Shown here in pieces: positions 8,813 through 13,220 of a DNA stretch of 64,000 nucleotides (its first letter is position 1; the number at the start of each line of letters is the position of its first letter). The notes beneath the pieces are model-generated. The model made no database searches, was not told the DNA's origin, and saw only the letters and a list, made by a program, of their open reading frames with translations. The position numbers and the translations under genes are program-made. Source of the stretch: an uncultured Burkholderiales bacterium (GTDB lineage Bacteria > Pseudomonadota > Gammaproteobacteria > Burkholderiales > Burkholderiaceae_C); the NCBI GenBank assembly GCA_903831655.1, contig CAIKYO010000437.1, positions 1-64,000 on the forward strand. Direction: 5' to 3'.

Positions 8813-8847
8813 TCCTCCTCAGAGATTCTTTCTGAGGAGGATTTTTT
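8813..8847 (+). terminator. Rho-independent terminator downstream of the CoxL-like gene
   Basis: tcctcctcaga-N7-tctgaggagga followed by a T-run. Confidence 0.85.
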
Positions 8848-11762
8848 TATTCAGATGACAAATGCGGACTGAGCAACCCGGCGATCTCAAACATGGTCAC
8901 GCTATCTTTACCAAACACTTTTGAGAGTGATGCGTCGCAAAGAATGGTTCTCTTGTCCTTGCTGTCTTGCAAGCCTTTGGCCTTGATGTAGTCCCACAAT
9001 TTCTTGACTGCCTGAGTTCGAGCCACCAACTCGTCTCCAATGACTTGTGCCAAGGCCCCACTGGGCTTTAAATTCGCAGTGACTTTTCTGGGCGCCTTTG
9101 GAGCTTTGTCCACCTTGGCTGCTTTGGCAGTGGCACCTTTGGCGCCAGCCTTCATCGTTTTTTTGCCTGCAACTTTTTTAGCAACAGCAGCCGTTTTTCT
9201 GGGTGGGTACTTGCTGTTTCTGGGCTCAAACTGGAAGGAAACCTTTGCGGCCTCAGGGTCCCAAGCCAAATACGCCTTGAAGGGACGGCGCGTCCTCATG
9301 GACACAAACTTATCGAGCAAATCCGTTTTGCCTGTTTCTAGCAGTTTCTTGACTTGGTCAGCGTCAATGGGTTGCTGAAGAACCATTTTGCCCGTCTTGA
9401 AGGTGCAATTGGGCGTGGCCAGCGTCAAACTGGGTACGGCATGCTCACATACATATTGTGATCCATGTTCAAAAACACCCGATCCACAGGCGGGACATGT
9501 GCCTAAAGAGACTTTTTGTGAGAAATCGATGAGCTCTCCTGACTCCTCGGCATTCTTATCTTCACCAAAGTCAAACTCAAGCTTCCAGTTCTGATCTTCT
9601 TCACTGAACTTCAATACCATCTCAGCAGTGAAAGGCCATCCCGCCTTAGAGCGGAACCCATCTAGGGGGCCAATGTGTTTATTGGCCAAGAAAGACTCCA
9701 CCTCGGCGATCTCAAACGCTCGACCGGCTGGGGTTTTTCCAAAAGAAAATCCACAGCCCTCTGACTCTCCATTTACACCTTGACAGGTGTAGCGACGGTA
9801 ATTTTCTTTGACCTGTCCACCACACTTGGGACAAGGGGTGGCCAAAGTCACATAGTCCCCGGGCACGGTGTCTCTGTCGTATTCCTTGGCCTTTTTAACG
9901 ATGTGTTCCGTCATTTGAGCAATGTCTTGCATGAACGCATCGCGGCTGAGTTGTCCATGTTCCATCAATGACAGCTTGTGTTCCCACTCTCCTGTGAGCG
10001 CGGGTTTGCTCAACTCCTCCACGCCCAGGCCTCGGAGCAAGGTCATCAACTGGAACGCCTTGGCCGTTGGAATGAGCTCTCGACCCTCTCTGAGCATGTA
10101 CTTCTCGTTCAAGAGCCCCTCAATCGTGGCTGCTCGCGTGGCTGGCGTGCCCAATCCCTTTTCCTGCATGGCCTCTCTGAGCTCATCGTCTTCAACCAAT
10201 TTGCCAGCCCCTTCCATGGCGCCCAACAGGGTGGCCTCGGAATACCTGGCAGGGGGTCTCGTCTTTAGCCCCTTGGGTTCAACTTCTTGAGCGAGCGCAT
10301 TTTCACCCTCTTGCACCACCACCAAACTCTTGCCCGAGCCCTCCTCCTCAGAGACCTCTTTTCCGTAAATGCTCATCCACCCTGGGTTGACCATGACTTT
10401 GCCATCTGTTTTAAAAGCGTGCGTTTGCTCTTTTAAGTCAATCAAAGTGGTACGGGTGGTCACCAAAAACTCAGCCGAAGGGAAAAAGATGGCCATGAAG
10501 CGACGAACGACCAAGTCATAGAGCTTTTGCTCTGCCTCGGACAAGCCTTTGGGCTCTTCAAGCGTCGGGATGATTGCAAAGTGATCGCTCACTTTGCTGT
10601 TGTCAAAAATTCGCTTGGAGGGACGAATCATCTTCTCTTTTAGTGCAACACGGGCATGAGGTGACAAATGCTTCATGCCACTCTCAGCAATCATCTCAAA
10701 GGTGCTCACCACGGTGGGCAAATAGTCCTCAGGCAAATGCCTAGAGTCTGTCCTGGGGTAGGTCAGGGCTTTGTGCCTTTCGTACAAACTCTGTGCCAAA
10801 GCCAATGTGGTCTTGGCTGAATATCCAAAGCGTCCGTTGGCCTCGCGTTGCAAAGAGGTGAGGTCAAAAAGGGCTGGAGCGGCTTGCGTGGTCGGCTTGC
10901 TCTCATCAATCACACGACCAGACTGGCTCTTTGTCGCATTGGCAATCTCCAATGCCTCTTGATGAGTCCAAACCCGATCGGCTTTTTTCTCGGGATCGTT
11001 CTCATCCTTTTTATGCTGTGGATTGATCCATTTGGCCGAATACTCACCGGCCTTGACTTTGAAGTTGGCTTGAATTTCCCAATAGTCGCGGGAGATGAAT
11101 TTTCTGATCTGCTCTTCACGCTCCACCACCACTGACAAGGTTGGTGTTTGAACACGGCCCACCGTTGTTAGAAAAAAACCACCATCGCGCGAATTAAAGG
11201 CAGTAAATGCTCGAGTCCCGTTGATGCCCACCAACCAATCGGCCTCAGACCGACTCCTTGCAGCATCCGCCAAGCCTTGCATTTGTGCCTCTGTTCTAAG
11301 ACTCTCAAAGCCATCTCGAATGGCCTGAGGAGTCATGGACTGCAACCACAACCGGCGAACTGCCTTGTTGGATTCTTTTTGACCAAAGGCGTACTGCTCA
11401 ATCAAGCGAAAGATCAACTCCCCCTCTCGGCCTGCATCACAAGCGTTGATCAACTCGCCTATATCTTTTCTCTTGAGAAGCTTGACCACTGCGTTGAGCC
11501 TGGACTTGGTCTTGTCCACAGGTTTCAGCTCAAAATGAGGCGGTATAACGGGTAAGTTTGCAAAGCTCCATTTGCCTCGCTTGACGTCAAACTCCTCTGG
11601 CGCCTTGATCTCCAACAAATGACCAACAGCACTGGTGACCACATATTTGTCATTTTCAAAATGATCATCGTGCTTTTCAAATTTACCCGCAACCGGGGTC
11701 AGAGCCCGGACGATGTCTTGGGCCACTGAGGGTTTTTCTGCAATCACCAAAGTTTTTGTCAT
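8847..11762 (-). CDS. topB: DNA topoisomerase III with C-terminal Lys/Ala-rich linker and SWIB domain
   Basis: 971 aa; N-terminal TOPRIM (MTKTLVIAEKPSVAQDIVRAL), active-site region ALTYPRTDSRHLP, C-terminal Zn-finger-like CPKCGG/CPACGSG, last ~71 aa match the SWIB/MDM2 pattern (VKKLWDYIKAKGLQDSKDKRTILCDASLSKVFGKDSVTMFEIAGLLSPHL). Confidence 0.93.
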   Translation of the reverse strand: MTKTLVIAEKPSVAQDIVRALTPVAGKFEKHDDHFENDKYVVTSAVGHLLEIKAPEEFDVKRGKWSFANLPVIPPHFELKPVDKTKSRLNAVVKLLKRKDIGELINACDAGREGELIFRLIEQYAFGQKESNKAVRRLWLQSMTPQAIRDGFESLRTEAQMQGLADAARSRSEADWLVGINGTRAFTAFNSRDGGFFLTTVGRVQTPTLSVVVEREEQIRKFISRDYWEIQANFKVKAGEYSAKWINPQHKKDENDPEKKADRVWTHQEALEIANATKSQSGRVIDESKPTTQAAPALFDLTSLQREANGRFGYSAKTTLALAQSLYERHKALTYPRTDSRHLPEDYLPTVVSTFEMIAESGMKHLSPHARVALKEKMIRPSKRIFDNSKVSDHFAIIPTLEEPKGLSEAEQKLYDLVVRRFMAIFFPSAEFLVTTRTTLIDLKEQTHAFKTDGKVMVNPGWMSIYGKEVSEEEGSGKSLVVVQEGENALAQEVEPKGLKTRPPARYSEATLLGAMEGAGKLVEDDELREAMQEKGLGTPATRAATIEGLLNEKYMLREGRELIPTAKAFQLMTLLRGLGVEELSKPALTGEWEHKLSLMEHGQLSRDAFMQDIAQMTEHIVKKAKEYDRDTVPGDYVTLATPCPKCGGQVKENYRRYTCQGVNGESEGCGFSFGKTPAGRAFEIAEVESFLANKHIGPLDGFRSKAGWPFTAEMVLKFSEEDQNWKLEFDFGEDKNAEESGELIDFSQKVSLGTCPACGSGVFEHGSQYVCEHAVPSLTLATPNCTFKTGKMVLQQPIDADQVKKLLETGKTDLLDKFVSMRTRRPFKAYLAWDPEAAKVSFQFEPRNSKYPPRKTAAVAKKVAGKKTMKAGAKGATAKAAKVDKAPKAPRKVTANLKPSGALAQVIGDELVARTQAVKKLWDYIKAKGLQDSKDKRTILCDASLSKVFGKDSVTMFEIAGLLSPHLSSE

Positions 11763-11888
11763 TTAAATTTTCACGTCCTTGTTGACCCGCATTGTGCACT
11801 TTTTTTGCGCAGTCTTGGCAAACACTTTAAAATCATAACCGTGAGCCTCATTATCCAAAATTTGCTCATCCTCCCTTTTTTTATTGAA

Positions 11889-12398
11889 ATGACCTCCATT
11901 GTGACCACCACCAAACCTAAAAAATCCAAACACAAACGCATTGAAACCCGTCAATCCGGCGTCCACGGCAAAGGTGTCTTTGCTCTGGAGGATATACCCA
12001 AGGGAGAGGTCATCATCGAATACAAGGGAGAGGTGATCAGCTGGAAGGAAGCCCTTAGACGACACCCCCACAACCCCGCAGAACCCAATCACACCTTTTT
12101 TTTCCACATCAATGAAAAAAACGTGATTGACGGGGGCTCCAAAGGCAACAGTGCTCGCTGGATCAACCATTCTTGTAAGCCCAATTGCGAAGCGGATGAA
12201 ATTGGCAATCGTGTTTTTATCAAATCCATCAAGAAAATCAAAGCTGGCGAAGAGCTCAACTACGACTACGGCTTGATCATTGATGGCAAATACACCAAAA
12301 AGCTCTTGGCCGATTACCCATGCTGGTGTGGCTCCAAAAAATGCCGTGGCACCCTCTTGGCCCCCAAAGACGAGCCCAAAAAATCATCCAAGCACTGA
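11889..12398 (+). CDS. SET domain-containing protein-lysine N-methyltransferase
   Basis: SET motifs GVHGKGVFALEDIPKGEVIIEYKGE, RWINHSCKPNCEA, GEELNYDYG and post-SET CWCGSKKCRG. Start taken at internal Met (MTSIVTTTKPKKSKHKRIE); ORF opens at 11805. Confidence 0.9.
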   Translation: MTSIVTTTKPKKSKHKRIETRQSGVHGKGVFALEDIPKGEVIIEYKGEVISWKEALRRHPHNPAEPNHTFFFHINEKNVIDGGSKGNSARWINHSCKPNCEADEIGNRVFIKSIKKIKAGEELNYDYGLIIDGKYTKKLLADYPCWCGSKKCRGTLLAPKDEPKKSSKH

Positions 12399-12413
12399 CC
12401 CAGCCCATTTATT

Positions 12414-13220
12414 TTGTCTGATTTGCCCTCCCCCTCTTTGCCTCAAACCCCCACCGAATGGGGGTTTGAGAGGGTTCAAGAAATCGACTCTACATCCAGT
12501 GAACTCATGCGTCGCGCAAAAGCGGGGCACTGTGATTCAACCCTTTTGCTGGCCGAACTCCAAACAGCGGGACGCGGGCGGCAAGGTCGCGTTTGGGTCA
12601 GCGAGCCTGGACAAGCACTGACTTTTTCAATGGGGTTTTTATACAACCCCCAGGACTGGATGGGACTTTCTTTGGCCATCGGCGTGGCGTTGGTCAAGGC
12701 CATCGATCCATCCAAAACCCTTCAGATCGGATTGAAGTGGCCCAATGATGTTTGGCACATCGGGGCGATGGGACCCGCAAAATTGGCCGGTATTTTGATT
12801 GAAACCGTCAGTGTCTCCAACCCTTTGGGTGACAGCGCCACTCGGTACTGTGTTCTTGGAATCGGCTTGAACCGATTCACACCTAACTTATCGAAGTTTG
12901 AAGGCTTCTATCCTCCACCCATTGGATTGTTGGAGTTGGGCTGCTCTTTGGGCGAGGACGAATTGCTTGAGCGCATTTTGGCCGAACTCACGCCCACACT
13001 CTTGCAGTTTCAGTCCGAGGGTTTTAGACCCTTCAAGGCCTCTTTTGATCGCTTGGATCTTTTGAAGAACCGCGAAATCAACGTCAATGCGGCCCCCTAC
13101 GGCGTCGCGCTGGGTGTGAACGATAGAGGGGAGTTACAGGTGAACACTTCGCTTGGTCTACAAAGCATGGTCAGCCAAGAGGTGAGTGTGCGCCCGGCAC
13201 CCCTGCGCTCTGAGTCATGA
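12414..13220 (+). CDS. birA: Biotin--[acetyl-CoA-carboxylase] ligase
   Basis: TAGRGRQGRVWVSEPGQALTFSMGF and LKWPNDVW biotin ligase motifs; start may lie slightly downstream of 12414. Confidence 0.9.
   Translation: MSDLPSPSLPQTPTEWGFERVQEIDSTSSELMRRAKAGHCDSTLLLAELQTAGRGRQGRVWVSEPGQALTFSMGFLYNPQDWMGLSLAIGVALVKAIDPSKTLQIGLKWPNDVWHIGAMGPAKLAGILIETVSVSNPLGDSATRYCVLGIGLNRFTPNLSKFEGFYPPPIGLLELGCSLGEDELLERILAELTPTLLQFQSEGFRPFKASFDRLDLLKNREINVNAAPYGVALGVNDRGELQVNTSLGLQSMVSQEVSVRPAPLRSES

Follow-up and report, generated by a model that had tools for sequence, protein, structure and literature searches.

The SET-domain gene described here lies head-to-head with topB and just ahead of birA, forming a topB–SET–birA block that is more conserved than its surroundings across the family, birA being as conserved as topB. 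Bacterial SET enzymes have been studied mostly as weapons on host chromatin; a SET gene kept since deep in the past of a large, mostly free-living water and soil family, beside topoisomerase genes and H1-like tails, points instead to lysine methylation of the native nucleoid. We judge the chances to be evenly balanced that the enzyme natively methylates AKK-type tails of the cell's own nucleoid proteins.

Gene structure and products

Within the window—the whole 64,000-nucleotide stretch of DNA that was analysed—the block comprises the following features:

8847–11762, minus strand: topB, DNA topoisomerase III (971 aa), its C-terminal SWIB domain preceded by a Lys-rich linker (Pfam and NCBIfam)
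8856–9068, minus strand: SWIB domain of TopB, residues 899–969 (Pfam)
9075–9224, minus strand: Lys/Ala-rich linker of TopB, residues ~847–896, its KAPKAPRK end just before SWIB (sequence)
11763–11888, no strand: divergent topB/SET intergenic region, 126 bp (ORF boundaries)
11889–12398, plus strand: SET-domain protein, predicted lysine methyltransferase, 169 aa, with HGxG, NHSCxPNC, GEELxYDY and post-SET CxCxxxxC motifs (Pfam, alignment, structure)
12414–13220, plus strand: birA, biotin protein ligase, third member of the block (profile matches, loci)

The product of 8847–11762 is a complete topoisomerase III, made up of Toprim, the type IA core, two Toprim_Crpt repeats, the linker and SWIB (Pfam: Topoisom_bac, E = 1.4e-108; Toprim; Toprim_Crpt, twice; SWIB, E = 2.9e-26, at residues 898–968). 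The NCBIfam model NF011313 (PRK14724), ‘DNA topoisomerase III’, matches it over its whole length, residues 1–969 and thus including the SWIB end, scoring 1784 bits where the cut-off is 1088; the annotation of this model makes no mention of SET. The linker reads RNSKYPPRKTAAVAKKVAGKKTMKAGAKGATAKAAKVDKAPKAPRKVTAN and does contain all of the Ala-Lys motifs (AKAAK, GKK, APK) originally attributed to it. Of 59 SWIB-bearing TopB tails, 32 contain the pattern K[ATV]PR[KT], where shuffling would lead one to expect 0.49; in these linkers (9075–9224 in the window) it resembles the K14-A-P-R-K18 stretch of histone H3 and typically stands immediately N-terminal of SWIB. Two genomes (G106 and G114) carry extra, diverged copies of topB, with 48–50% identity to the TopB of the window.

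For the SET gene, the start codon is the ATG at 11889; the start at 11805 in the ORF list belongs merely to a longer, mechanically called frame. Its product matches Pfam SET (E = 1.4e-26), with no second domain found; in sequence comparison its best SET match is human MLL1 (E = 2.7e-25), and the predicted structure (mean pLDDT 82) has the SET domains of MLL1 and MLL3 as its nearest Foldseek neighbours (MLL1, E = 2.3e-12). In an alignment of 30 relatives, which takes in non-adjacent and gyrB-linked SETs, residues H26, G27, G29, N93, H94, C96, P98, G120, E122, Y125, D126 and Y127 are invariant, as are the post-SET zinc cysteines C145, C147 and C152 that go together with C96. Given this invariance of cofactor motifs, catalytic motifs and post-SET cysteines alike, the protein looks like a working lysine methyltransferase. 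A tyrosine at its F/Y-switch position would presumably favour low-order (mono) methylation, as we assume from what is known of MLL1. SET is also better conserved than its neighbour, with a median identity among relatives of 64% against 42% for BirA.

Many SETs of the family bear long, Lys-rich, H1-like C-terminal tails (G139, G150, G170, G077, G133 and others). A second and more distant SET paralog of ~150 aa is present in many genomes of the same genus (G001–G036), though not found in the genome of the window; in one of these, G006 (97% complete), the more distant paralog is the only SET.

The genes are arranged as first proposed, the SWIB-bearing topB and an intact SET standing head-to-head over 126 bp, and SET is followed by birA after a gap of 15 bp. 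The further proposal of shared promoter control gained no support from a scan of 11700–12500, which gave neither a sigma-70-like promoter nor a promoter pair; the one recurring element is a TAAAAT box at 11828–11833, seen in 9 of 10 aligned relatives.

Conservation within and beyond the family

Of 300 family genomes, 286 contain a SET relative (E ≤ 0.001); by genus the tally is 120 of 126. Sampling one genome per genus (141 genomes, 126 genera) yielded both topB and SET in 132, and in 130 of these the two are divergent on the same contig, which extends the pairing far beyond close relatives, in support of the first proposal; the distance is within 1 kb in 129, and the median gap between hits is 164 bp. 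Exceptions are G133, with the genes 8 kb apart; G119, with the genes on two contigs and both hits at contig ends; and G186, where they are unlinked and SET clusters with another SET in the poorly resolved gene tree (142 columns). The same gene order is seen in records of Limnohabitans, Polaromonas, Hydrogenophaga, Rhodoferax, Caenimonas and Variovorax, and many freshwater and groundwater MAGs are found among the relatives.

The principal rival to native methylation of nucleoid proteins is synteny by simple descent: the region may be rarely rearranged, and the substrate of SET unrelated to its neighbours, for instance a ribosomal or metabolic protein. We hold this to be quite possible, if short of probable. 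As a control for plain synteny we took 41 long loci, themselves located via SET, of which 39 retain both topB and birA. Beyond birA, the next gene (a sensor kinase) is kept in 26, the one after in 22 and recA in 16; on the far side of topB, the next gene is kept in 7. The functionally unrelated birA thus keeps its place as well as topB does, which speaks for descent; that the block persists through the sampled genera better than its flanks do speaks against it.

Losses of SET bear on the same question. Four genera (g48, g50, g62 and g92) have no SET, and there topB is directly divergent with birA; SET is therefore dispensable, and its removal from an undisturbed topB–birA pair again fits synteny alone. 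These genera amount to a natural experiment. Two further absences were set aside: that in G184 is a contig-edge artefact, a piece of SET lying at the contig end, and that in G111 looks like another, its topB being a mere fragment on a small contig.

Outside the family, SET is present in 26 of 136 genomes sampled from the order, topB accompanying it in 23 of the 26 as against 42 of the 110 SET-less genomes. The expected co-occurrence of SET and TopB is hence borne out in the order by Fisher's test (p = 4.5e-6), a statistic that ignores kinship and to that extent leaves room for descent. In f32 SET lies directly downstream of gyrB in the origin cluster (dnaA–dnaN–gyrB–SET; L339, L341), and in f6 it sits directly behind gyrB and tail-to-tail with topB (dnaN–gyrB–SET–topB–dprA; L333, L334); such adjacency to gyrB and/or topB beyond the family is not what synteny by descent within it would lead one to expect. 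Members of f4, f8 and f10 have SET 4–17 kb from topB. Elsewhere its neighbours vary by family, as descent alone would allow: ilvD in f47, thyA in f66 (outside the order) and other unrelated genes. With class-level sampling, a SET match at E ≤ 1e-25 was found in just 7 of 273 other genomes. The idea that SET joined topoisomerase genes anew and wholly independently was considered and rejected: the arrangements in f6 and f32 may just as well be what is left of a single ancestral cluster near the origin, and such a cluster can explain the SET–gyrB and SET–topB links no less well than repeated association.

Lysine-rich tails and the loss of SET

The genome of the window encodes two H1-like proteins, one of which is an H1-like tail joined to SWIB:

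L361:1327–1767 (contig C110 of the same genome), minus strand: stand-alone H1-SWIB protein, 146 aa, AKK H1-like tail plus SWIB
L360:1480–1926 (contig C335 of the same genome), minus strand: HC2-like histone H1 protein, 148 aa, mainly AAKKPAAKKVAAKK repeats

The HC2 match (E = 8.9e-20) is over the cut-off, and the H1-SWIB protein has a match in 41 of 41 family genomes. The 148-aa protein adjoins an ORF resembling the small subunit of ribonucleotide reductase. Comparing HC2 (PF07382) with SET status gave matches over the cut-off in 10 of 28 genomes with SET and in none of the 12 without it; we discarded this comparison, because the model performs badly on low-complexity repeats and the genomes without SET are small.

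The TopB linker plus SWIB shares 55% identity with the H1-SWIB protein that stands alone elsewhere in this genome, so that the end of TopB looks like a fused copy of the H1-SWIB module. About half of the family members sampled have SWIB on their TopB. The idea that it serves as the partner domain of SET found no support: 57 SET-bearing genomes have a TopB lacking SWIB, most of them ending in a short tail, for example RAAKVPAKKAAAKKAA, and on the TopB tree the changes in the two are uncorrelated, leading us to reject SWIB–SET co-evolution.

The tails themselves do vary with SET. H1-SWIB tails hold a median of 9 KK doublets (range 1–14) in 29 SET-bearing genomes versus 1–2 in 12 SET-less ones, and PGLS (lambda = 1, TopB-core tree) gives p = 0.013 for H1-SWIB tails and p = 0.024 for TopB tails, the doublets being depleted where SET is missing. 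SET loss accordingly accompanies depletion of lysine doublets in both kinds of tail, over 1–3 loss events and with a measure picked after inspection of the data. TopB tails from the rest of the order go in the same direction (p = 0.013, uncorrected for phylogeny), and eight SET-bearing genera have H1-SWIB tails that are short or doublet-poor (≤3 KK doublets). Since SET was lost in 1–3 events, we treat the correlation as a weak lead and not as proof; as far as it goes, it counts against synteny alone.

A second alternative, overlapping with native methylation of nucleoid proteins, is that the TopB tail is the specific substrate of SET and that both genes are co-controlled from the region they share. 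The divergent adjacency is near-invariant in the family, with a convergent counterpart in f6, and a KxPRK motif stands ahead of SWIB, both as this alternative would have it. It would also account for lysine-free TopB tails being confined to g48 (SET lost) and G186 (SET unlinked; tail AAEAAE). Such tails are nevertheless no clean mark of SET loss: they are limited to these two cases, and composition bias explains much of the lysine-free tail of g48, because this genus has the highest GC of the groups and a low K/(K+R) in the TopB core also. Lysine-rich TopB tails are retained without SET in g50 (there with SWIB), g62 and g92, and many families of the order that lack SET have them too; nor did the scan show a promoter pair that would speak for co-control. 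In f6 the SET-linked TopB has an Arg-rich tail with one lysine, because of which the TopB tail is unlikely as a universal substrate. Of the original proposal, then, the depletion of KK doublets after SET loss still speaks for the TopB tail, and the retained lysine-rich tails and the Arg-rich one weaken its claim to be the specific target; we think the TopB-specific alternative rather unlikely, and regard H1-like and H1-SWIB proteins as better candidate substrates.

Known SET systems and a proposed role

The remaining alternative, a secreted effector acting on eukaryotic host chromatin in the manner of RomA/LegAS4 or BtSET, is highly improbable: known proteobacterial SETs are described mostly as effectors (PMC3980110), and the sole NCBIfam match of SET is to the AnkI/LegAS4 model NF043024, at a weak 47.7 bits against a cut-off of 550, yet the gene sits inside a housekeeping block in 286 of 300 family genomes, among whose relatives are those many freshwater and groundwater MAGs, and its product is a SET domain alone, with neither ankyrin repeats nor any other effector domain found.

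Native methylation of nucleoid proteins, by comparison, has precedents. The cpnSET of Chlamydia pneumoniae binds and methylates the histone H1-like Hc1 (Murata et al. 2007, reviewed in PMC3980110), and the likeness lies in a bacterial SET with H1-like, Lys-rich nucleoid proteins in the same cell as likely substrates, here marked by the HC2 match in the same genome. It differs in belonging to an obligate intracellular pathogen, and the review mentions no linkage to topB; our SET is carried by nearly all genomes of a family in which many members are free-living, and its substrates are putative. Go1-SET of Methanosarcina mazei, which methylates MC1alpha (Manzur and Zhou 2005, reviewed in PMC3980110), is likewise a prokaryotic SET whose target is a DNA-binding chromosomal protein, but it is archaeal and has a single likely target lysine, unlike the AKK repeats proposed here. 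BaSET acts on H1, and BtSET and LegAS4/RomA are host-directed (PMC3980110); the latter share the SET domain and come from relatives within the Proteobacteria, but are described as secreted effectors on host histone H3, whereas the SET of the window has no effector domain. Among the papers searched, none names the SET domain together with Comamonadaceae.

From gene structure, motifs, arrangement, losses and tail correlates we infer the following scheme. SET would be a housekeeping enzyme, an active protein lysine methyltransferase that belongs to the MLL/SET1-like class and has a post-SET zinc site. It would methylate lysines within (A/P)-A-K-K repeats in the H1-like tails that the cell itself produces: those of the stand-alone H1-SWIB protein and of H1-like proteins and, in many species, that of TopB. 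Methylation may tune how tightly these tails hold DNA, and the inheritance of SET beside topB, or gyrB in other families, would reflect a role in maintaining nucleoid and supercoiling. SWIB on TopB would be a lineage-specific fusion of the H1-SWIB module and no required partner. A bolder version—that one SET writes methyl marks on the KK doublets of H1-like tails (those of H1-SWIB, topoisomerase III and, in some lineages, SET itself) in most of the Comamonadaceae-type family, thereby coupling DNA topology to the packing of the nucleoid in free-living bacteria, with the gene travelling with topB or gyrB—we consider doubtful.

SWIB has been called rare in prokaryotes outside Chlamydia, and in Chlamydia trachomatis the SWIB domain of TopA contributes to growth (PMC12445093). 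That enzyme, like the TopB of the window, is a type IA topoisomerase with a C-terminal SWIB after an unstructured stretch; it is, however, a topoisomerase I, whereas here a topoisomerase III carries an AK-rich linker, and SWIB is present on roughly half of the TopBs sampled in the family.
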